From the NCBI GenBank assembly GCA_913057205.1, contig CAJXNO010000028.1, forward strand, positions 1-35,582: DNA of 35,582 bases, in the 5' to 3' direction. Positions 680-33,718 of the stretch are shown here, one piece after another. A model generated the notes under the pieces. That model did not search any database. It was not told the DNA's origin and was given only the letters and a program-made list of their open reading frames with translations. Position 1 is the first letter of the stretch. Each line of letters opens with the position of its first letter. Source of the DNA: an uncultured Flavobacteriales bacterium. GTDB lineage: Bacteria; Bacteroidota; Bacteroidia; Flavobacteriales_G; Salibacteraceae. The translations under genes and the position numbers were made by a program.

Positions 680-762
680 GCTACGAAGGTCTGCAAACTT
701 TTTTGGTTTCCTAGACAACTATTTTTTTGGCGAATGCATCTCTTTTATCAAATCACTTACGG

Positions 763-3700
763 ATGAAAAAGCTACTAATTCTCGGATTATTTATGTGTGG
801 TCTCCTGGGTTTACAAAAGGAGGCGAAAGCGACCCATATCATGGGGATGAACATCAACTACGAGCACATCAACGCGGATTCATTTTGGGTCTACCTCGAC
901 TTCTGGGAGTACTGCGGTGGTTCTGCATTTAATGGGCAAGCAACTTGGGCAGCTAGTGGTGGCTATGCTGGGTATAGAATCCATTGTATGCAAACGGAAA
1001 CCTCTTCCCCTTTTATCATCGCTCCGCTGGATACAATAGTCGACGTATCGCCGATCTGTGATTCCTTATCTGCTACATTGAACTCTTGTATCGCTGGCTG
1101 GCAAACAGGGCTCTTGGGTATTCGTTGGTATAAGTACAAGCACTTGCTGGTGATAAGCGACCACATGCCATCTTCATCCTGTTCTGAGTTTGTTTTGTTC
1201 TACGGCACTGGGGCAAGGAATACGGGAGTGAATTATGTCAACCAACCTGGCATCGCAGCTTACACTACAATCAGAGCAAATACCTACCCCAACAATAGTT
1301 CACCGCGGTTCACGACGAATAAGCCCATTCCATTTTTCTGCAATGGTCAGAGCGTAACGTACAATTGGGGTGTAGTAGAGCAGGATGGTGATAGTCTTTA
1401 TTGGGAATTGGATACTGCACTTACCAATACGTTCAATTTTGTAACCTGGCCCAATTATATTGACTACGCTAGTATCACTACGCCTCCTATTACCTTTTCA
1501 GGTGAAGAACCGATGGATGGGGTTCAGATTGATCATGCAACGGGAGAATTGACATTCACTGCCTTTAAACCAGGGGGATTGGTCGCGGCGAACTACGCCA
1601 TTGCGGTCAAAGTGTCTGAATACAATCCGCAAAGCGGCGAATTGATCAGTACCACCCAGCGAGATGTGCAGTTCATCGTAACGGACTCGTGTAACAACAA
1701 TGCACCACAACAAGATACCAATGGGGTGTTGAACTTCAGCGGTACCGGAGCGCAGACGGGTCCTAACCTCATTGATGTGTGCGTCGGTCAGAGTTTCTCT
1801 TTCCAGGTGGCCGTGTTTGACTTGGATACAGCAGGTAACTTCTCCAACGACAGCCTGAACATTACCTGTAACATCGACTCGGTGCTCCCAGGTGCAACTT
1901 GGACCACCTTGGGTACGAACCCAGATACGGTAACCATTTCATGGACGGCCGTTCCAGTGAACCAGACCTTTGTTCCGTTCAACATTACGGTAGAAGATGA
2001 CTTCTGTCCGGTCACGGGCTTCAACATCTTCAACTACATCATTCGGATCTCTCCGCGAACTTTCTTAGGTCCGGATACAGCGATCTGTAGCTTGGATACC
2101 ATCCAACTGGATGCCAACGGGGGCGACACCTTCAACTGGTCGGTGCTCTACGGAGACCCGATACAGGTGGGAACGAACTTCGGATGCGTGCAGTGCAAGG
2201 ATCCGTGGATCCATCCAAGCCAGACCACGGCCTACGTAGTGGAAAGTAACTTGAACGAGACTTGCGGTAACAAGGATACCATCGTAGTGGAGGTATTCAA
2301 CCAGTTCCCCGTAGAGATGGAGCCGATCAACGGCGGTACAGTCGACACGGTGGTCTACTGTTCAACCGATGGACTAGACACCTTAGTGGCACAGACGCCC
2401 GGTGGAACCTATCTGGGTCCGGGTATAGTGAACACCACCGCAGGGGTCTTTGCGCCAGACATATTGGATCCAGGCTTTGGTAGGGACTCAACGATCACGG
2501 TGACTTACGTTCTGGAAGGCGTGTGTGCGAACACCTCCGAGCTGAACATCCGCGTGAAGGGGCAACCAGATGCACGGGTATTGACGCAGGGTCCGTTCTG
2601 TAAGAACAGCACAAGCGAACAGCTGGAAGGATACACTCCTGGTGGAACATGGTCAGGACCGAACACCACGAGCAGTGGTATCTTCGATCCAAGTGCCTAC
2701 GCGAACACCGCACCGGATACGGTCATGATCTTACATACGGTAGATGACAGCGGCTGCGTCTTCACCGACTCAGCGCAGTTCAGGATCATCAATGAGTACA
2801 ACTCAGACATCGACAGTCTACCGAAGATCTGTCAAGGAGAAGAAGTATCGATCCGCTTGAACGACTATGAAGCCGATCCGTTCGGAACATGGAGTGGGGA
2901 GAACGTGGAGGAAGACCCGAACCAAACCGGTGTATTCTTTTTCAATTCTGACAATGTAAAAGCAGGAACCTATGACATCACGTATTCCATAGAGGGTGAA
3001 TGCGGAACAGAGACCACCGAGCAACTAATTGTGAGTCTGTTACCAGATGCAACGATCTACGGCGCAGACAGCGTGTACTGCGACAACATTGTAGACAGCG
3101 TATTACTAGAGACCGAGCGTCCGGATGGTCGCTGGGGAGGCACCTTGCCTTCGCTGCACGACGGATACTTCATCCCAAGCACCATGGGTGAAGGGCTTTA
3201 CACGATCACCTATGAGTTGTATGACACGGTAACCACGTGCTACAACAAGAATGAAGTGGAGGTACGCATTGCTCGTACGCCTGTTCGTCCGAAGTTGGAC
3301 GGTGGCGGCCCATACTGCCAGGGAGATAACTGGTGGGTGCGCGGCGATGGACTGTTGAGCAACACCTATAAGTGGTACAGCTGGGATGGTACCTTCCGCG
3401 AGGAGAACACAGACAGCGTACTTACCATAGCAGACATGGAGCTGCTGGGTGCAGGTAACCCGTTTGAGTATGGTGAGTTGGTAGACATGCCAACCACGAT
3501 CTTCGGAACCCAAGTGAGCGAGTATGGTTGCGAGAGCGCTTACTCCAAGCTGGAAGTGATCGTGAAGCCATCACCGAACGCCTTGTTCGTGATCGATTCT
3601 ACGCAGAGTGATGTAGAGCGGGCGATAGATGGTGCCTTGACAGGAACTGCACCGTTCACGGCAACGTACTTAAACTTGAGCGGTCCTGATAGCTTCAGCT

Positions 3701-4155
3701 TGACCTACACGTGGGACTTCGGAGGCTACAGTCAGATCTTTGATGAGACGGGAGACCCGATCACCGAGACGATCCCAGAGATCGGAAGCTATCCGGTACA
3801 GTTGATCGCAGACAATGGTCAGTGTACCGATACCCACACGGTGATCGTACGCATCGATCGCATCACGAACTTCTTCGTGCCAAACGTCTTCACACCGAAC
3901 GGCGACAACAACAACGACTTGTTCGAGTGGGACATCGAGGGCATAGATGAGTTCCGTATGACGGTGTATAACCGCTGGGGTAAGAAGGTCTTTGAGACCG
4001 AAGACTTGAACACCTTCTGGGATGGTCGTAGACAGAACGACGGAGCAGAATGCGAGTCGGGAACGTACTTCTACGTGATCACCGGAAAGGAGCAAACCTT
4101 GGATGCGGAACCCGTAGAGTGGCGAGGCGATGTAACGCTGATCCGCGAAGATTAA
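763..4155 (+). CDS. Large secreted protein with 80-residue Ig-like repeats and T9SS type B (gliding motility-associated) C-terminal domain
   Basis: This 1130-residue protein starts at the ATG at 763; an upstream in-frame TTG at 727 would place 12 polar residues before the signal peptide and is rejected. Residues 1-23 are a signal peptide (MKKLLILGLFMCGLLG, cleavage near AKA/T), followed by THIMGMNINYE, a start I associate with large Bacteroidota surface proteins. A DGDSLYWEL segment near residue 215 resembles a motif common in them. From about residue 540 come four modules of about 80 residues, each with an N-terminal Cys, a G-T-W/Y-x-G-P-like core and a second Cys. A PKD-like segment (residues ~950-1035) precedes the C-terminal domain (1037-1130; FVPNVFTPNGDNNNDLFEW, then YNRWGKKVFE). 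Family knowledge: this domain directs export by the type IX system to the cell surface. The role of this protein is unknown; adhesion is an inference. A terminator follows. Confidence 0.93.
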   Translation: MKKLLILGLFMCGLLGLQKEAKATHIMGMNINYEHINADSFWVYLDFWEYCGGSAFNGQATWAASGGYAGYRIHCMQTETSSPFIIAPLDTIVDVSPICDSLSATLNSCIAGWQTGLLGIRWYKYKHLLVISDHMPSSSCSEFVLFYGTGARNTGVNYVNQPGIAAYTTIRANTYPNNSSPRFTTNKPIPFFCNGQSVTYNWGVVEQDGDSLYWELDTALTNTFNFVTWPNYIDYASITTPPITFSGEEPMDGVQIDHATGELTFTAFKPGGLVAANYAIAVKVSEYNPQSGELISTTQRDVQFIVTDSCNNNAPQQDTNGVLNFSGTGAQTGPNLIDVCVGQSFSFQVAVFDLDTAGNFSNDSLNITCNIDSVLPGATWTTLGTNPDTVTISWTAVPVNQTFVPFNITVEDDFCPVTGFNIFNYIIRISPRTFLGPDTAICSLDTIQLDANGGDTFNWSVLYGDPIQVGTNFGCVQCKDPWIHPSQTTAYVVESNLNETCGNKDTIVVEVFNQFPVEMEPINGGTVDTVVYCSTDGLDTLVAQTPGGTYLGPGIVNTTAGVFAPDILDPGFGRDSTITVTYVLEGVCANTSELNIRVKGQPDARVLTQGPFCKNSTSEQLEGYTPGGTWSGPNTTSSGIFDPSAYANTAPDTVMILHTVDDSGCVFTDSAQFRIINEYNSDIDSLPKICQGEEVSIRLNDYEADPFGTWSGENVEEDPNQTGVFFFNSDNVKAGTYDITYSIEGECGTETTEQLIVSLLPDATIYGADSVYCDNIVDSVLLETERPDGRWGGTLPSLHDGYFIPSTMGEGLYTITYELYDTVTTCYNKNEVEVRIARTPVRPKLDGGGPYCQGDNWWVRGDGLLSNTYKWYSWDGTFREENTDSVLTIADMELLGAGNPFEYGELVDMPTTIFGTQVSEYGCESAYSKLEVIVKPSPNALFVIDSTQSDVERAIDGALTGTAPFTATYLNLSGPDSFSLTYTWDFGGYSQIFDETGDPITETIPEIGSYPVQLIADNGQCTDTHTVIVRIDRITNFFVPNVFTPNGDNNNDLFEWDIEGIDEFRMTVYNRWGKKVFETEDLNTFWDGRRQNDGAECESGTYFYVITGKEQTLDAEPVEWRGDVTLIRED

Positions 4156-26338: not shown

Positions 26339-26851
26339 TTATTCCGTAATGCCCAACTCAGCTTTCACCAAGTTGAGGATATCGTCTGATTCAGGCTGAT
26401 ACAACAAGGAGCCTGCACTGCGATCGAATACGTAAGTGAAGCCATTGTCTTGGGCCACCTTCTCGATTGCTGCACGTGCCTTATCAAGGATAGGCTGATA
26501 CACCTCTGCTTCTTTCTTCCCGAGCGATTGCTGTGCATTCTGTTGAAATGCTTGGATACGCTGCTCAAGGTTCTGGATCTCTTCTGCTTTGGTTTGTGCG
26601 ATGATGTCAGACATCACAGCCTCGTTTGCACGATAATCTTGGATCTTGCTTTCCCATTCCTTAGACATTGCACCCAGTTGAGTTTCTAACTGCTTAGCGA
26701 ACTCCTCAAGCTTCTTGTCGGCTTCCTTTTTCTCTGGCATCATTTCAAGCAATTCCTGAGAATCGATGTGCGCTAATTTTTGCGCTGTCTGGGCCTTCAA
26801 CGTGCCGAATGAAAGCACCACGGCTAGTACAGAAACAAGTAGATATCTCAT
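26339..26851 (-). CDS. OmpH/Skp-family periplasmic chaperone (second copy)
   Basis: The protein has 170 residues from the ATG at 26851, where a clean signal peptide begins (MRYLLVSVLAVVLSFGTLKA, then Q). An upstream in-frame start would add 16 residues and hide the signal, so it is rejected. Mature residues ~45-135 are a long charged coiled coil, the tentacles of Skp, around a short beta core. HIDSQELLEMMPEKKEADKK resembles the OmpH start. Family knowledge: Skp trimers hold unfolded outer-membrane proteins for the BAM complex. It lies directly after a related copy and close to bamA. Confidence 0.88.
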   Translation of the reverse strand: MRYLLVSVLAVVLSFGTLKAQTAQKLAHIDSQELLEMMPEKKEADKKLEEFAKQLETQLGAMSKEWESKIQDYRANEAVMSDIIAQTKAEEIQNLEQRIQAFQQNAQQSLGKKEAEVYQPILDKARAAIEKVAQDNGFTYVFDRSAGSLLYQPESDDILNLVKAELGITE

Positions 26852-26885
26852 GACGATTTTATTTAGTGCAAATAAAAGGGATAAA

Positions 26886-27416
26886 TTATTCTGTATCACC
26901 AGTGAAACCTAATCGTTGTAAGATTTCATCACTTTGGTCATACTTTGGGTTGGCATAGATGATCGCAGAACTAGAAGCTGCCTTATCAAAGATGACGGCA
27001 TAACTGCGTTGCTCTGCCATTTTACGTACGGCTTCAAACACCTCTTCTTGGATCGGTTTGATCAGCTCTTGTCGAAGCTTGAACAGGTCTCCATCCACGC
27101 CGAATTTTTGGCGTTGGAAGTCCTTCGCTTCTTTCTCTTTCGCAATGATTTCTTCTTCCTTGCGCTTCTTCATATCAGGGGTCAACAAGACCTGCTCAGC
27201 CTTGTATGCCGTATACATCTTCTCAATCTCCTCGTATCGAGCCTCGATTTGCTTTTGCCATTTCTCGGCTTGTGCATCGAGTTCGGTCTTGGCCTCTTGG
27301 TAGGCGGGAATCTGCTCCAGGATGAAATCGGTGTCGATGAAGGCATATCGCTGTGCAAATAGCGGGGTGCTCATCAGCAGAACAAAGAGGGTTGAAAGTG
27401 TCAGTAATCGTTTCAT
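26886..27416 (-). CDS. OmpH/Skp-family periplasmic chaperone (first copy)
   Basis: The protein has 176 residues with a signal peptide (MKRLLTLSTLFVLLMSTPLF, then AQ). The mature protein starts RYAFIDTDFILEQIPAYQEA, the typical OmpH N-terminus. It continues into a Lys/Glu-rich coiled coil (~40-120) and ends with RSYAVIFDKAASSSAIIYAN, the closing beta strands of the body. It is followed 34 bases later by the second copy; the two are clearly diverged, so duplication is old. It lies 15 bases after bamA, the complex it serves. Confidence 0.92.
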   Translation of the reverse strand: MKRLLTLSTLFVLLMSTPLFAQRYAFIDTDFILEQIPAYQEAKTELDAQAEKWQKQIEARYEEIEKMYTAYKAEQVLLTPDMKKRKEEEIIAKEKEAKDFQRQKFGVDGDLFKLRQELIKPIQEEVFEAVRKMAEQRSYAVIFDKAASSSAIIYANPKYDQSDEILQRLGFTGDTE

Positions 27417-27431: not shown

Positions 27432-30116
27432 TTACAGGTCTCCAAATTGCATGCCCAAAGTGAAATGGAAGCGTGAACGCTGTGCATCAAAAGGTGGGAA
27501 GCCTTCTCTGCCATCGCGATCATCAAGGCGGTAACCCCAGTCAACACCGAGCATACCGAACATTGGAAGGAAGCTCCGTACACCCAGTCCAGCAGAACGG
27601 TAAACATCAAATGGGTTGAATCCGTCAAAATCTGCCCAGCTGTTACCCGCTTCGGTGAATGCCAAACCATAGATGGTCGCATTTGGGTTCAGGCTGAATG
27701 GATACCTCAATTCTGCGGTATACTTCGAGATCAAGGTTGCTCCGAGCGTTGGTGAAAGGTTGGATCCCGCATAACCACGCAAGGAGATGATCTCTCGAGA
27801 GTCTAGCTGGTTGTTGATGTTGGAGAATGGATCACCACCCAGGTAGAAGCGTTCGAATGGCACCATTCCCACGTCGCGGTTGTAGAAGCCGAGCGCTCCA
27901 AAGCCCACCTTGGTGTAAAGCACAAACTTATCGAACAGCTTGTTGTAGAAGGCTGCGGTGAATTTGGTCTTGTGGTACTCCAGCCAACGGAAGCGTTGTG
28001 CAGCGTCAAGACCACTGTAGTCTTTGTTGTTGAACACACTGAACGGAGGCGTGAATTGGAATGAAAGTGAAAGTTCTGACCCCAGGGTAGGGAAGATCTG
28101 CTGATCAATCGAGCTTCTGTTCAAACGCAATCGGCCGAAAAGGTTATACGCTTGACCTGTCTGGAAGAAGAACTGGCGCTGGTTCTGCAGGGTATACTGC
28201 TGGAAGCTCACCTCCAACATCCCCGTGAAGTAGTCATCCGGAATGGTCAAACGAGAACCAATCTGTGCGGAAACACCACGTCGCTCGAAGTAGGAGCGAT
28301 CAACGTTGTACACCTGAAGCGGACGTTCCACACCCCAGAATGCTCGGGTGAGGGTATCGCTGTTGGATGGAATGTACTTTCTGGATGCATCCGAGAAGAA
28401 CGAGTAAAAACTACTCAGAGTCAAGCTCACCGGCTTTCTACCACCCAGCCAAGGCTCCGTAAAGGAAACGTTGAAGGCTTGGAATTGTCGACCATTCGTG
28501 TTGAACTGAATGCTCAGTTGCTGCCCATCTCCCGAAGGAAGCGGACCGTTCCACTCCTTTGGCTTAAACAGGTGCTTCGTAGAGAAGTTGTTGAACTGAA
28601 CCCCTACGGTCGCAACAAGGATACGTCCACCGTAACCACCTTGTAAGGTCAACTGATCATTCGGCTTCTCTTCCACGATGTAATCGATGTCAACCGTTCC
28701 CGTCTGTGGATCGGGTGTTGGGATGACGTTCATCTTCTCCGGATCAAAGAACCCAAGTACGGAGAGCTCGCGTTGTGAGCGGATGATGTCTGCTCTACTG
28801 AATAACTGTCCAGGCTTGGTACGGATCTCACGTAGGATCACGTAGTCGTTTGTCTTCGTGTTACCCGCCACACCGATCTTGTTGATCCGTGCTTGCTCGC
28901 CCTCATACATGCGCACCTCCAGATCGATCGAATCTCTACCTACCAAGATCTCAACCGGATCAAGTTGGAAGAAGAGGTAGCCATTGTCCATGTAAAGCGA
29001 GGTAACATCACCCCCGTTTGGATCCATGTAAAGCCGCGCCTCCAATTTTACGGGATCGTAGACGTCTCCGGCTTTGATGCCCAAGGTGTTGGTTAACTGC
29101 TCAGAAGGGTACTTTGTGTTACCGATCCATTCGATATCTCGGAAGTAATAGCGGTAACCTTCTGAAACCTTCATCTTTAGGTTCACGCGATCCTTTTCTA
29201 CATCGTAAACGGTATCAAACAGTACCCGTGCATCACGGAACCCCTTTTGATTATACTTGGCGATAAGGATCTCTTTGTCTTCCTCCCAATTCTCATCCAG
29301 GTACTTCGAGGTTTTGAATATGGTCAGTTTGATGTGGTCAAAGAGGTAATTCCTGAGGGTGTAAGGCACCTGTTGTCGGTCGTGGAGCAGGTTGTCTGCC
29401 AATGTTCTCGCGAGGGTGTCGAGGTGTTGGAAAGGTCGGAAGCGGCTCTTTTCCTTGGTTTCTTTTAGGCTTCTTCTGATCTGATAATCGCTGAAGAAGT
29501 CGTTGCCCTCGATCTCGATCTTCTTGATCTTCACCTTTTTGCCCTTGTCAACAGCGATGGTCATAAAGATGTGGTTCTTAAAGATACTGTCGTTCTCTTC
29601 GATCACCTTCACATCTACCGAACGGAAACCTTTTTCCTCGTAGTACTTGCGCACCTTGTTTCGAGTGGAGATGACGAGGTTCTCCGTTACGATCTTCTCC
29701 TTGTAAAGGTTGATCTCCTCTCGGAGGTCATCGGCTTCGGATCGGGTCACTCCTTCAAAGCGGAAGCGTGAGAGGCGAGGACGTTCTTCGATCTTGAGCA
29801 CCAAGAAGATCTTCTTGCCCTCGATGCGTTGCACCAGGAGCTGGATATCAGAGAACAGGTCTTGTTTCCAAAGTTTTTTGAGGGCATCGGCGGTCTCTTC
29901 ACCCGGGATCTCGATCTTATCTCCCACCGCTAGGCCACTCAATAGCCGGATCGCACCTTCATCTAGGTTGTCAGCTCCTTCTACGGTTAGGCCAGCGATT
30001 TCATAGGTGCGCGGTGCGCTATAGGAGAAGTTGTCAGAACTGATGCGCACCTGTGCATGAAGCGAAGCAGAAGCAAGCAGCGCGAATAGGAATGTGATAC
30101 GGATAAGGTGCCTCAT
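27432..30116 (-). CDS. bamA: Outer membrane protein assembly factor BamA
   Basis: The 894-residue protein has a signal peptide (LIRITFLFALLASASLHA, then Q) followed by about five POTRA domains (~35-430; the first opens YEIAGLTVEGADNLD). A 16-stranded Omp85 barrel (~440-894) ends in the outer-membrane-type C-terminus FHFTLGMQFGDL. GGDPFSNINNQLDSREIISL with RGYAGSNLSP contains the conserved RGY-type element near the barrel's inner loop. It folds beta-barrel proteins into the outer membrane. It is larger than E. coli BamA (~810), as is usual in this phylum. It lies eight bases downstream of uppS and upstream of the two ompH genes. Confidence 0.95.
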   Translation of the reverse strand: MRHLIRITFLFALLASASLHAQVRISSDNFSYSAPRTYEIAGLTVEGADNLDEGAIRLLSGLAVGDKIEIPGEETADALKKLWKQDLFSDIQLLVQRIEGKKIFLVLKIEERPRLSRFRFEGVTRSEADDLREEINLYKEKIVTENLVISTRNKVRKYYEEKGFRSVDVKVIEENDSIFKNHIFMTIAVDKGKKVKIKKIEIEGNDFFSDYQIRRSLKETKEKSRFRPFQHLDTLARTLADNLLHDRQQVPYTLRNYLFDHIKLTIFKTSKYLDENWEEDKEILIAKYNQKGFRDARVLFDTVYDVEKDRVNLKMKVSEGYRYYFRDIEWIGNTKYPSEQLTNTLGIKAGDVYDPVKLEARLYMDPNGGDVTSLYMDNGYLFFQLDPVEILVGRDSIDLEVRMYEGEQARINKIGVAGNTKTNDYVILREIRTKPGQLFSRADIIRSQRELSVLGFFDPEKMNVIPTPDPQTGTVDIDYIVEEKPNDQLTLQGGYGGRILVATVGVQFNNFSTKHLFKPKEWNGPLPSGDGQQLSIQFNTNGRQFQAFNVSFTEPWLGGRKPVSLTLSSFYSFFSDASRKYIPSNSDTLTRAFWGVERPLQVYNVDRSYFERRGVSAQIGSRLTIPDDYFTGMLEVSFQQYTLQNQRQFFFQTGQAYNLFGRLRLNRSSIDQQIFPTLGSELSLSFQFTPPFSVFNNKDYSGLDAAQRFRWLEYHKTKFTAAFYNKLFDKFVLYTKVGFGALGFYNRDVGMVPFERFYLGGDPFSNINNQLDSREIISLRGYAGSNLSPTLGATLISKYTAELRYPFSLNPNATIYGLAFTEAGNSWADFDGFNPFDVYRSAGLGVRSFLPMFGMLGVDWGYRLDDRDGREGFPPFDAQRSRFHFTLGMQFGDL

Positions 30117-30124
30117 TTAGATTC

Positions 30125-30868
30125 TCAAAGCTTTACCTGTTCACTGGTCATACCAAATCTTCGCTCACGCGATTGATAGTCGATCACCGCTTGGATCAGG
30201 TCTTTTCCCCTGAAGTCTGGCCACAGGATGGGTAGAAAGTACAACTCCGCGTAGGCCAATTGCCAAAGCAGAAAGTTGCTGATGCGCATTTCACCGCTGG
30301 TACGAATCATCAATTCAGGGTCTGGAGTGCCGTGTGTCGACAGGTATGAACTGAAAAGTGATTCATTTATTGCGTCTGGGTCGAGTTGTTCGTCTTTTAC
30401 TTGAGCAGCGATGCGTTTGGTGGCTTCCATGATCTCCCACCGCGATGAATAGCTCAAGGCGAGAATGACGTCCATTTTATTGTTTTGGCTCGTCTTTGCA
30501 ATTCCTTTATCGAGCTCTCTGCGCGTGGCAGAAGGCAAGGAATCTACATCTCCGATAGCCCGCAATCGAATGTTGTTGTCCATCAGGGTCTTGATCTCCT
30601 TGTTGATGGTGGAAACCAGAAGTTCCATCAATGCATTTACCTCACGCTTCGGACGTTTCCAATTCTCTGTTGAGAAGGCATAAAGCGTTAGGTATTTTAC
30701 ACCGATTTCCGCCGCCGTTTCAGTGGTGTTGCGCACCGCTTCAAGCGCATTCCGATGGCCGAAGATCCGGGCTTTACCCTTTCCCTTCGCCCACCTACCG
30801 TTGCCATCCATGATGATGGCAATATGCTCCGGTACATTGTCTCTATTTAGCTCTGGTGGAAGTTCCAT
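30125..30868 (-). CDS. uppS: Isoprenyl transferase (undecaprenyl diphosphate synthase)
   Basis: This 247-residue cis-prenyltransferase makes the C55 lipid carrier for peptidoglycan and surface glycans. The start MELPPELNRDNVPEHIAII precedes the catalytic DGNGRWAKGKGK. YLTLYAFSTENWKRP and the C-terminal PDPELMIRTSGEMRISNFLL with QLAYAELYF are the usual signatures. The ATG at 30868 lies seven bases after the T-run of a terminator-like hairpin. uppS-bamA adjacency is conserved in the phylum. It is eight bases upstream of bamA. Confidence 0.97.
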   Translation of the reverse strand: MELPPELNRDNVPEHIAIIMDGNGRWAKGKGKARIFGHRNALEAVRNTTETAAEIGVKYLTLYAFSTENWKRPKREVNALMELLVSTINKEIKTLMDNNIRLRAIGDVDSLPSATRRELDKGIAKTSQNNKMDVILALSYSSRWEIMEATKRIAAQVKDEQLDPDAINESLFSSYLSTHGTPDPELMIRTSGEMRISNFLLWQLAYAELYFLPILWPDFRGKDLIQAVIDYQSRERRFGMTSEQVKL

Positions 30869-30875
30869 CGGCGTG

Positions 30876-30909
30876 AAAAAAAATTGTCCCGAACATACCC
30901 CCGAGACAA
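30876..30909 (-). terminator. Terminator or attenuator between the PorG-like pair and uppS
   Basis: On the minus strand TTGTCTCG and CGGGACAA pair over 8 bp (one G-U) around a 10-base loop, followed by eight T residues. It lies 17 bases after the PorG-like stop at 30926 and ends seven bases before the uppS ATG. A TATGTTCG element sits in the loop region and could serve as a -7 box for uppS. Confidence 0.7.
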
Positions 30910-30925
30910 GTGGTTGCGAAGGTAA

Positions 30926-31738
30926 TTAAATCCGAAGATGCTTACACGAACCCTTTTTAGGTCCCAAACGAATGGAAAGGGTAGCCACAGCAAAGGAAAA
31001 CCAATCGGTGCTCAGCTCATTGCCGCGTTGGGTTCCCCAATTGGTGCCGTCGGGTCCTGCTTGCTCCAAACTGCGGTCGCTCAAATCTTCTGCGAGCCCC
31101 TCTAACGATCCGGCTTCTGGGTAGAAACCGCTCACATCATCCAAGTAGTCGGTAAAGGTGCGTCTTAAGCCCCAATCCGCACTGAATAGGATGCGGTCTG
31201 AAATGGCCAGCTTGAATCCAAATCCAAATGGAATGGCTACGTTAACCTTGGAGTACTCTCGTCCTTCCGTAGCATTCGGTTGAAGCTCGAAGATGCTGTT
31301 CTCCACTTCTGTACTTGGATTGAAGTAAAAGCCGCTAAGTCCGATGAAGGAGTATGGAGAGAAGCAATACTTGTCTACCAAAGCGTCCCATGGCAGAAAA
31401 TTGAATTCGATCGTATTGCTAAATTCGATGATCGGACTCGTGAAGTTTAGGTTCCGGTTCCTTCTAAAGCTGGTGTTCGCGAAAACGTCATTGGCACCAA
31501 CCTCGCCATAATTAAACTGCCAGCGCAGCGCGAAGCGCTGGTTGAGGTTCCTGCGCAAACTCAAACCGAAAGCACGATTCATGTAGTTCCTACCGAAGTG
31601 AACGTAAGGATTCAGGTCTCCGTTATACCAAGAGGTACCTCCGCTAACACCCAACTCAAAATCGGTCTGACCCGACTTTTGGGCGTGCAGAACTTGAGTT
31701 CCAAAAAGGAGCGCACATATGAGCAAGGCACGTTGCAT
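30926..31738 (-). CDS. PorG-like (DUF6089) outer-membrane protein, copy 2
   Basis: The protein has 270 residues from the ATG at 31738, which gives a standard signal peptide (QRALLICALLFGTQVLHA, then Q). An ATG at 31777, just after the previous stop (TAAG-ATG), adds 13 residues and is a real alternative. The mature protein alternates polar and hydrophobic residues like a small beta barrel. FTDYLDDVSGFYPEAG is the family's hallmark, also in copy 1 as FTDYMDDVSGRYFDPV. Family knowledge: proteins of this type next to uppS and bamA include P. gingivalis PorG, an outer-membrane protein associated with the T9SS PorK/PorN ring. The role here is inferred from that. Confidence 0.82.
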   Translation of the reverse strand: MQRALLICALLFGTQVLHAQKSGQTDFELGVSGGTSWYNGDLNPYVHFGRNYMNRAFGLSLRRNLNQRFALRWQFNYGEVGANDVFANTSFRRNRNLNFTSPIIEFSNTIEFNFLPWDALVDKYCFSPYSFIGLSGFYFNPSTEVENSIFELQPNATEGREYSKVNVAIPFGFGFKLAISDRILFSADWGLRRTFTDYLDDVSGFYPEAGSLEGLAEDLSDRSLEQAGPDGTNWGTQRGNELSTDWFSFAVATLSIRLGPKKGSCKHLRI

Positions 31739-31778
31739 GTGAGAGAGAAACGAAAGAAGGAGAGAATTAGTTTGCATC

Positions 31779-32771
31779 TTAGAACTTCGGACGGTTCGTC
31801 TTACGAGAAGTGAACTTGTAGTTGAAGGCAAGCACTGCAAACATGTAAGCGTCGTTGGTTGTGGCATCACCACGTTGCTCGCGGATTGTCCATGGTTGTG
31901 ATCCGCCAGCCAAAAATTCGACACCGTCATCTTTTTCTACGGGAATGGCAGGGTTAGAAAAGAAAAGTGCAGCATCTCCGGTGGTGCCGCCCAAGCCGCT
32001 ATTGGCATCTGCAATGGCAACTGGATCGAAGTATCGACCGCTTACGTCATCCATATAATCTGTGAAGGTCAAGTGGAAACCATATTCAAAGGAGATGTAA
32101 ATGTTCTGGTTCACACTGTACTTAGCACCGATACCACAAGGTAGCGCCATGGTGATCCGACTATAGGGGTCAGGACCTGTTACGGTTACGGGTGCACCCG
32201 TGAGTGGATCGGTCAATGTGGTCGTCAATCCTTGTCCTTCCGTCTTCAAGGCATGCAGGTTGTACCATTGGCCATTATACTGTCCATGTGGATTGAACCA
32301 CACGCCCGCTAAACCACCAAAGACATAGGCACTCATACCGCTTCCTAGCGCACCGCGAATACCACGAACGCGATAGCGGTTGTTGGTCTTTTCGCGGATG
32401 AAGAACACTTCACCAACGGCAGAAAGCTCCACCAAAGGAGAGCGGAACGAGAGGTTTCGGCTGCGTCGGTGAGGATAACCGGAGAATTCATCGGAACCGT
32501 AAATGCGTGCGTAGGTCAATCCACCCCGCAAGCTCACGATTTCATTCAGTTTGTATCGGTAACCACCTGAAAAGGCAAAGCGCATAGACTTTGCGTCAAA
32601 GTCGAGACAAAGGTCTTGTGCCTCTTGGTTTCCACCACCCAACTCGCCAAGGAAGTTGGTTGCGCCAACACCTCCCCAAGCCTCATGCCTGTAACGCTTC
32701 CAGCGCTGTCCGTGCGCAACCGAAGAGGCCAGTGTAGCTGTGATTAAAACAAGTACGAGGTTTAGTCGCAT
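31779..32771 (-). CDS. PorG-like (DUF6089) outer-membrane protein, copy 1
   Basis: The protein has 330 residues from the ATG at 32771, where the signal peptide starts (RLNLVLVLITATLASSVAHG, then Q). The longer reading from 32858 overlaps the nadK 3' end and buries the signal, so it is rejected. It shares with copy 2 the order: N-terminal strand pair, R-R-S/N-R-N-L-x-F segment (RRSRNLSFRSPLVELS against RRNRNLNFTSPIIEFS), and the FTDYxDDVSG motif. It is 60 residues longer, with extra loop sequence (LTDPLTGAPVTVTGPDPYS). Family knowledge places such proteins with type IX secretion. It has its own promoter upstream. Confidence 0.83.
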   Translation of the reverse strand: MRLNLVLVLITATLASSVAHGQRWKRYRHEAWGGVGATNFLGELGGGNQEAQDLCLDFDAKSMRFAFSGGYRYKLNEIVSLRGGLTYARIYGSDEFSGYPHRRSRNLSFRSPLVELSAVGEVFFIREKTNNRYRVRGIRGALGSGMSAYVFGGLAGVWFNPHGQYNGQWYNLHALKTEGQGLTTTLTDPLTGAPVTVTGPDPYSRITMALPCGIGAKYSVNQNIYISFEYGFHLTFTDYMDDVSGRYFDPVAIADANSGLGGTTGDAALFFSNPAIPVEKDDGVEFLAGGSQPWTIREQRGDATTNDAYMFAVLAFNYKFTSRKTNRPKF

Positions 32772-32794: not shown

Positions 32795-32824
32795 TAAATA
32801 TAATTGTTTGGGTGCCCTGCTCAA
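32795..32824 (-). promoter_or_regulatory. Promoter for the PorG-like pair
   Basis: On the minus strand TTG (32824-32822), a spacer of exactly 19 bases, then TATATTTA (32802-32795), one mismatch from TAnnTTTG at the last base. The start codon at 32771 is 23 bases further. It falls between nadK and copy 1, so the pair can be expressed apart from nadK. Confidence 0.6.
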
Positions 32825-32833
32825 TGCAAAGGT

Positions 32834-33718
32834 CTAATTGCGTCTGTCGTACCCCCAATGAAGCTTGTGTCTCAATGTTTTTAGGAAACTGTGATTCTTA
32901 AGGCGAACCAGATTGATTTCAAAATCGTTTTTCATAACGTTCACTACACAGTCTTTTTCAATGCTGGTGGAACGGGAGTCAAGTGACATCAATAGATTCT
33001 CACTGCGGGCTTCCATTTTCAAGGTGATCACACTCTGATCTGAAACAAGAACAGGCCGAACCGTCAAATTGTGTGTGGCAACGGGGGTAATGATGAAATT
33101 CGAAGAGCTTGGTAAGATGATTGGCCCGCCGCAACTCAGCGAATATGCGGTAGATCCGGTAGGAGTTGCGATGATCAATCCATCGGCCCAATACGTGTTC
33201 AGAAACTTCCCATCCACGTAAACATGCACCACAATCATCGATTGCGTATCCTTCTTGTGGATCGTGAGTTCATTCAATGCGAAGTTGTCGCGTCCGAAAA
33301 GCTCATCTTCTGTTTCCGCTTTGAGAACCGATCGGGTATCGATCATGTAGGCTCCTTTGAAGATTTGCTCCAATGCGGGTTCCATCTGGTCCAGGTTAAT
33401 GCTCGATAGAAAACCAAGTCTGCCGGTGTTCAGTCCAAGGATGGGCAACTTACTATCGCGCACAAAAGTGGTGGTATCAAGCATGGTACCGTCTCCTCCT
33501 ATCGACAACATAACGTCGTATTCCTTTGGTTGAAAGCTATCGCGTTCAAAGCTTCCGAACTGCTCGGACAATTGAATTCCCTTCTGTTTCAAGGTTTTCG
33601 CAAAGGGGGCGTAGATGTCTACCTTTCCCTTGCGCTCTTCCAGTAGTTTGAAGAACTCTTGGATGCGTTCGTTGTACTCGTTGCCGAATGAGCGTCCGTA
33701 GATCGCAAGTTGCTTCAT
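32834..33718 (-). CDS. nadK: NAD kinase
   Basis: This 294-residue protein phosphorylates NAD to NADP. GGDGTMLDTTTFV (74-86) holds the catalytic Asp. GLNTGRLGFLS and the substrate loop NELTIHKKD follow, then GLIIATPTGSTAYSLSCGGP. It starts three bases after the Omp85 stop, so it is translated with that gene. nadK beside a CBS-domain protein and uppS-bamA is a recurrent flavobacterial arrangement. Confidence 0.97.
   Translation of the reverse strand: MKQLAIYGRSFGNEYNERIQEFFKLLEERKGKVDIYAPFAKTLKQKGIQLSEQFGSFERDSFQPKEYDVMLSIGGDGTMLDTTTFVRDSKLPILGLNTGRLGFLSSINLDQMEPALEQIFKGAYMIDTRSVLKAETEDELFGRDNFALNELTIHKKDTQSMIVVHVYVDGKFLNTYWADGLIIATPTGSTAYSLSCGGPIILPSSSNFIITPVATHNLTVRPVLVSDQSVITLKMEARSENLLMSLDSRSTSIEKDCVVNVMKNDFEINLVRLKNHSFLKTLRHKLHWGYDRRN

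Follow-up and report, generated by a model that had tools for sequence, protein, structure and literature searches.

Introduction

PorG of F. johnsoniae (Fjoh_1692) carries a tail Cys-Xaa-Cys motif that was found experimentally to be disulfide-bonded to Cys343 of GldK, and the single tail cysteine of P. gingivalis PorG (PG0189) is needed for T9SS function (PMC12635249, cited here from excerpts, as are the other papers below). The same 2025 study reports disulfide-independent contacts of PorG beside its covalent bond to the moving track, and SprB export suffers more when PorG itself is lost than when its cysteines are (PMC12635249). SprF, the adhesin carrier of F. johnsoniae, is likewise disulfide-bonded to GldK and is a track client via its tail cysteine (PMC12635249). 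For P. gingivalis PorG, the four PorK/PorN cross-links listed in PMC4980022 are all at Lys125, within SEFNFLPYSDGYKYLGTAR. An excerpt of the review PMC5445135 gives one PorG-type protein each for three species. A literature search for DUF6089 found no paper, a search for PorG together with paralogs found no second PorG in titles or abstract openings among the matches listed, and the main text of PMC12635249 contains no word beginning with paralog.

Here, we describe a DUF6089 barrel encoded directly beside porG. It keeps the barrel, enlarges the contact turn and lacks the cysteine, and so offers a natural experiment for telling the two activities of PorG apart. No description of its subfamily was found in these searches of titles, abstract openings and main text.

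A pair of DUF6089 genes between nadK and uppS

The window, by which we mean the whole stretch of 35,582 nucleotides that was analysed, has the minus-strand gene order CBS-domain gene, POTRA-barrel gene, nadK, gene A, gene B, uppS, bamA, two OmpH-like genes and murI. Gene A (31779..32771, minus strand, as are all genes of this order) encodes a DUF6089 outer-membrane barrel of 330 aa whose tail, TSRKTNRPKF, is free of cysteine, and gene B (30926..31738) encodes a protein of 270 aa with a single tail cysteine in GPKKGSCKHLRI. Upstream the array is flanked by nadK (32834..33718) and downstream by uppS (30125..30868), each an open reading frame whose place is conserved among relatives; from recognition and conserved order we take these two, murI and the CBS-domain gene to be what their names say. 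The assignment of bamA (27432..30116) comes from BamA-like POTRA repeats found in a domain scan and from conserved order. Two OmpH/Skp-like genes follow at 26339..27416 (27416-26886 and 26899-26339), the first of which, the sole one scanned, matches OmpH with 119 bits. The POTRA-barrel gene (35113-33722, 463 aa, one POTRA match) adjoins nadK in many relatives too. Elsewhere in the window, positions 727-4155 encode a 1142-aa protein in which a domain scan found PKD-like domains and a CHU_C/T9SS type B sorting domain, and which is likely a T9SS cargo encoded in the same window as A and B.

The original prediction had described two adjoining PorG-like genes, 60 residues different in length and sharing an R-R-x-R-N-L-x-F segment and an FTDYxDDVSG motif, and all of this is borne out. 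Both genes lie between nadK and uppS-bamA and both products match Pfam DUF6089 (A with 30 bits, B with 83 bits, cut-off 23); the lengths are 330 and 270 aa, counting B from MQRALL; and the shared segments read RRSRNLSF and FTDYMDDVSG in A, RRNRNLNF and FTDYLDDVSG in B. The two proteins are 29% identical (BLASTP, E 4e-26). The start of B was taken at 31738 (MQRALL) rather than at a longer ATG start at 31777 because the signal peptide, judged by eye only, begins there. The version with the long start, P0002, supplies the residue numbers used below for the tail of B (Cys278 and the strand end at 271).

Gene B is PorG

B scores 149 bits against the NCBIfam PorG equivalog model (NF052316) and passes its cut-off of 130. 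An AlphaFold2 model shows an 8-stranded barrel (pLDDT 83.8, pTM 0.79), the last strand of which ends at residue 271 (P0002 numbering) and is followed by a 12-residue tail on the presumed periplasmic side. The tail cysteine, Cys278 in P0002 numbering, is invariant in 17/17 aligned sequences. The genome of the window contains one GldK above cut-off (601 bits), and its Cys315, the equivalent of F. johnsoniae Cys343 and residue 345 in the GldK of G104, a genome of the F. johnsoniae-like group, is kept in 21/21 aligned GldK proteins. A second GldK cysteine (287 in G104) is present in 15/21 of them and absent from the GldK of this genome. By every computational test run, namely the model cut-off, the tail cysteine and the matching GldK cysteine, B is PorG. 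It resembles PG0189 and Fjoh_1692 in passing the cut-off, in its eight strands and in its nadK-uppS place; with the P. gingivalis protein it shares the single tail cysteine, whereas F. johnsoniae PorG has Cys-Xaa-Cys (PMC12635249).

By analogy with SprF, B should likewise be a client of the GldK track via its tail cysteine. Neither A nor B was matched to SprF in family scans; SprF belongs to another family (PorP/SprF type).

Gene A lacks the tail cysteine and falls below the PorG cut-off

The product of gene A shares with PorG the fold, the core motifs and the place in the gene order, and differs in falling under the model cut-off (99 bits against 130), in having no tail cysteine, in a long basic turn T2 (REKTNNRYRVRGIRG), in a basic mature N-terminus (QRWKRYR) and in a tail that ends in F. 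The original prediction was right in calling the two genes a PorG-family pair; it did not note their chief difference, that B has a tail cysteine and A has none. The AlphaFold2 model of A is an 8-stranded barrel of the DUF6089 family (pLDDT 81.3, pTM 0.78) whose last strand ends at residue 320, leaving a 10-residue tail on the presumed periplasmic side. In a structure search the nearest folds of both models were OmpA, OprF, OmpX, Ail and OmpW, and the likeness of A and B to such 8-stranded barrels of OmpA, OmpX or OmpW type is one of general fold only, with 7-13% identity among the 50 matches listed. Sequence searches of solved structures with A and B returned nothing relevant and no solved PorG.

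A profile named A1 was built from 17 A sequences. All 17 members match the PorG model at E <= 0.001, and the A-type copies of two relatives, G019 (134.9 bits) and G033 (133.2), barely pass its cut-off of 130. With 99 bits for the A of this window and 133-135 in those two genomes, A copies fall on both sides of the PorG cut-off, and annotators should be aware that some cysteine-less A copies are likely to be called PorG. The NCBIfam model THC0290_0291, weakly matched by 4/17 A members, was considered as a clue to A and set aside, as the excerpt of PMC5682007 holds one uninformative table line on it.

Two-gene arrays are widespread and split by the tail cysteine

We searched 100 relatives and obtained 94 loci, the window included, each being the region of the best PorG hit and mostly lying between nadK and uppS (both genes were seen in 60/94 loci); six relatives dropped out for want of a match (G065, G072), for a contig end (G086) or for having no listed place (G047, G063, G080). 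At least two DUF6089 frames were found in 60/94 loci, one of these 60 (G040) being a single broken gene. The arrangement is therefore not peculiar to the genome of the window, which answers the question raised with the original prediction of whether two-copy loci are common, and PorG family, T9SS neighbourhood and two copies all find support.

In 60/60 multi-gene loci the last, uppS-side copy has the tail cysteine. One cysteine-less copy followed by one with cysteine is the arrangement in 45/60 (G040, G054 and G097 included), and two cysteine-less frames precede the cysteine copy in 7/60, where the frames of G003 are one broken gene and those of G076 are both short. The remaining copies are not always cysteine-less, since in 8/60 every copy has a tail cysteine. 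For three tails (G035, G037, G064) the cysteine lies further in than the short scoring window, and that of G041 is cut by the contig. A cysteine-less copy before a cysteine copy occurs in 16/46 families, or in 13 if we leave aside f3, where the gene is broken, together with f16 and f51, whose cysteine-less copies fall outside the A clade. Within the genus the A-B pair is present in 13/13 genomes; two of the 13 A copies are broken, G003 by an internal stop and G007 by lack of the last strand, so that the latter counts as cysteine-less only because it ends before that strand. A may be dispensable, or these breaks may be assembly faults.

Furthermore, each copy was typed by the higher of its A1 and A2 profile scores, which gave 156 A-type and 148 B-type copies; the score gap exceeded 40 bits in 155 and 136 of them, respectively, and the typing thus does not hinge on the cysteine column alone. 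Among copies with a complete C-terminal end, 151/153 A-type have no tail cysteine and 143/145 B-type have one (within the last 30 residues in 141, further in within a longer tail in 2), the two cysteine-less B-type copies being those of G054 and G097; as the sequences are related, neither these counts nor the others given here are independent events. A cysteine does occur in the last 30 residues of 8/153 A-type copies, by eye in or before the last strand in six and in the tail in two (L174, L179). The A-type C-terminus is Phe in 125/153. The two exceptional A-type copies, L174 and L179, are from Bacteroidales and have tails of the form ..NICSFQY; a regained cysteine or the ancestral state are both possible.

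The uppS-side or only copy has one cysteine in 73/75 loci of the genomes outside the list of genomes without A, the other two (G030, G041) being cut by contig ends and a cut array (G031) being counted in. The same holds for 18/19 loci of genomes without A. A rule linking loss of A to a second PorG cysteine was considered and rejected: 9/10 tails of group f56 have two cysteines, but 18/19 loci of A-less genomes have one.

The A/B split is older than the family

In a quick tree of 127 copies, computed with the tail columns excluded, 35 cysteine-less copies fall into one group of 37 rows (SH-aLRT 91, below star level), and the same group holds two unlinked paralogs of the genome of the window. 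The cysteine-less copies of G054 and G097 (arrays L095 and L133) fall among cysteine-bearing relatives, which suggests that these nadK-side copies, placed outside the A clade, lost the thiol in a second, parallel event. A tree of 45 rows chosen from the quick tree, again without tail columns, separates 20 A from 25 B on one branch with support 100/99. An A+B clade constrained at the family level was rejected by 102 log units (AU p 1.6e-6, 22 rows), and one constrained to the genus and its nearest genus by 116 log units (AU p 5.4e-5, 7 rows). As the tree splits A from B and both constrained clades are rejected, the pair predates the family on these phylogenies, and distant families of the class contain A as well as B copies. 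The local duplication that had been proposed for this locus does not survive these analyses (support 100/99, AU p 1.6e-6 and 5.4e-5), since A and B are not nearest relatives; a phylogeny in which the two copies do not group together, named beforehand as the outcome that would speak against it, is what we obtained.

A is common in the class and also occurs away from porG

With the A1 profile, strong relatives were found outside the array in genomes with a lone porG. The copies fetched from 20 genomes with A away from porG are all A-like by score (20/20) and have basic tails ending in RSKF, SVPSF, LPSF, KIIF and the like, with one exception (G027, SFQN). A match at E <= 1e-80 was found in 179/392 evenly drawn class genomes of at least 90% completeness, at a threshold set from the 100 relatives (best recognised cysteine copy at a porG locus 1.4e-71, G060) that takes A-like paralogs, L137 among them, for A and leaves out some array copies (G068, 3e-75). 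Carriers named among the best 80 of 579 include MAGs of Flavobacteriales, Bacteroidales and Crocinitomicaceae as well as Brumimicrobium salinarum. The genome of the window itself holds further cysteine-less A-like paralogs, L137:3063-4247 and L136:2927-3859, which score 288 and 214 bits against the A profile, and therefore A is not a single dedicated partner; hits scoring like these two recur in the genus. A distant DUF6089-like barrel of the same genome (L139:1571-3754, contig C8) is joined to weakly scored thrombospondin-3-like repeats and SPOR domains. A SPOR domain binds peptidoglycan, and the product is perhaps an outer-membrane-to-peptidoglycan anchor.

Group f56 gave no A1 match at 1e-30 in 16/16 genomes, all 16 of which have GldK. 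In ten of these we inspected the PorG locus; each has a single, short PorG between nadK and uppS, with an open frame of 227-245 aa and, in 9/10, two tail cysteines, and from this size and tail f56 looks like the Flavobacteriaceae with F. johnsoniae. A is thus common in the class and was not found in the lineage resembling the one behind the track model.

Several further routes to a function were followed and abandoned. GldK is present in 380/396 genomes, and the 16/396 without it are too few for co-occurrence to inform on a tie between A and T9SS: four A-bearing genomes (G098, G261, G370, G392) gave no GldK hit at 1e-60, all of them drafts and G098 with GldJ, and four others (G072, G111, G169, G276) gave no GldK, no PorG and no A match at 1e-30, a number that carries little weight. 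GldJ is matched in 98/100 relatives, over its cut-off in only 43, and lineages with weak GldJ are also without A, so that for a tie between A and gliding ancestry and function are inseparable. For 66 loci with A outside the array (the 20 fetched and 46 of the 80 named) we clustered the neighbours that A genes have in common and, inspecting these by eye, recognised no T9SS gene and no hint of function. With bamA nearby, we also asked whether A could belong to the BAM complex of Bacteroidota, and nothing in the excerpts of PMC12611786 fits it; these name BamA, D, G, H, M and P, report no T9SS component among the co-purifying proteins and assign the porG of the bamA locus to T9SS (PMC12611786). 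GldK acidity was examined as a correlate of A and discarded, as its charge is -4 to -26 in 12 A-bearing genomes and +7 to -23 in 9 without A and the two ranges overlap.

The periplasmic face of A and its possible docking on the GldK/GldN track

Charge was mapped on the models for 155 A-type and 136 B-type copies, 1 A-type and 12 B-type copies with a smaller score gap being excluded. The net charge of the periplasmic segments has a median of +13 in A (5-95%: 8 to 21; n 155) and +4 in B (-1 to 9; n 136), while that of the outer loops differs little (A -7, B -5). Turn T2 has 20 aa and a median charge of +4 in A against 12 aa and 0 in B, and follows the pattern KExxGxRYRxRGVRG in A. When conservation was compared segment by segment in representatives (88 A, 95 B), the N-terminus ranked first in A, with 2.50 bits, and last in B, with 0.77. 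The conserved basic elements of A are this N-terminus (QRWKxxR), the enlarged T2 and a K/R-rich tail that mostly ends in Phe (..PKF, ..SKF). By eye, the cross-linked SEFNFLPYSDGYKYLGTAR of PG0189 matches EFNFLPWDALVDKY of B, which is its T2 turn. As the PG0189 cross-links lie in the equivalent of this turn, A has an enlarged and strongly basic form of the PorK/PorN contact turn.

Therefore, given this enlarged basic T2 and the conserved adjacency to porG, non-covalent docking is our best guess from the sequences as to how A would touch the GldK/GldN track and what it would do there. We propose two anciently diverged barrels, of which B is PorG, disulfide-linked to GldK, and A docks non-covalently on the same track, and give this proposal an even chance of being correct. 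The tail cysteine of B would form a disulfide with GldK Cys315, by which PorG would be carried along on the moving GldK/GldN track and transmit force to the type IX translocon. A would dock on GldK/GldN without a covalent bond, by turn T2 and its two ends, and would supply the disulfide-independent contact that PorG alone would supply where A is missing. The job of A probably differs from that of PorG. A further reading, in which A is a second kind of track client that rides on or guides GldK/GldN by electrostatic contact alone, a thiol-free counterpart of PorG able to slip, we consider rather unlikely; if this track-client reading were true, an outer-membrane part would be missing from the machine as published.

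The chief rival to docking is that A plays no role in T9SS and serves the envelope in another way, for example as a structural barrel whose basic periplasmic face binds peptidoglycan or lipid head groups, its adjacency to porG being a matter of history. This is a possibility to be taken seriously, if on balance a doubtful one. It would fit the varied neighbours of A genes outside the array, where no T9SS gene was recognised by eye, the SPOR-fused distant relative in the same genome (L139) and the T9SS-bearing f56, in which no A was found, and the basic segments could equally well bind peptidoglycan, lipid or something else. However, A and porG have stayed adjacent across distant families, PorG makes its PorK/PorN contact through the very turn that is enlarged in A, and G072, G111, G169 and G276 are without GldK, PorG and A alike, although these are too few to weigh much.

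An A-B hetero-oligomer, in which B gives the covalent link and A a contact surface, adapts the hetero-complex of the original prediction and seems improbable. The two models have the same fold and the spacing is operon-like, with 5-66 nt between the stop of A and the longest B frame in 29/39 two-gene arrays (the gene of G040, counted among the 29, is broken; in the remaining ten arrays the frames overlap, abut or are separated by 95-120 nt), but A is encoded away from porG in the 20 fetched genomes and f56 has PorG without A. That the two copies serve separate secretion machines, as the original prediction had also considered, is very unlikely: six DUF6089-like open frames (8 match pieces) are present in the genome, but only one GldK above cut-off. 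Recent local duplication giving redundant copies is virtually excluded, the trees and AU tests refuting it despite the adjacency, common fold and common motifs of A and B.

Transcription signals around the A-B array

Docking aside, the array was described in the original prediction as bracketed by its own promoter and terminator, of which the promoter is conserved and the T run of the terminator is so only in part. A putative promoter of A lies at 32795..32824 on the minus strand, with TTG (32824-32822), N19 and TATATTTA (32802-32795). The window contains 10 promoter-like sites against 7.7 expected and 7 terminator-like sites against 7.1, and sites at such near-chance numbers are not informative alone. 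TAnnTTTG is the flavobacterial sigma-A -7 consensus (PMC9723704). It is found 28-31 nt behind the nadK stop in 12/13 genus genomes, the thirteenth being that of the window with 7/8 letters, and within 160 nt in 28/32 family genomes (genus included), whereas among random stretches of 160 nt taken from these loci 7.6% contain such a box.

A second -7-like box, TACCTTCG (30917..30924, minus strand), stands directly behind the stop codon of B. In 13/13 genus genomes a box TAnnTT[TC]G begins 0-2 nt behind this stop codon, that is, 3-5 nt from its first base, and one is found within 63 nt in 31/34 family genomes, against a background of 4.4%. The box at 30924-30917 is a probable promoter of uppS. 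A terminator-like hairpin with a T8 run lies between B and uppS at 30876..30909 on the minus strand (hairpin 30909-30884, T8 30883-30876), and a run of 6 or more T is kept at its place in 8/13 genus genomes. The second box is upstream of the hairpin, which can end A-B transcripts but would also form part of the leader of uppS transcripts, so that the bracketing of the pair is incomplete. Within the stretch 30924-30876, the hairpin and T run could thus serve to attenuate uppS-bamA from its leader and not be a plain terminator.
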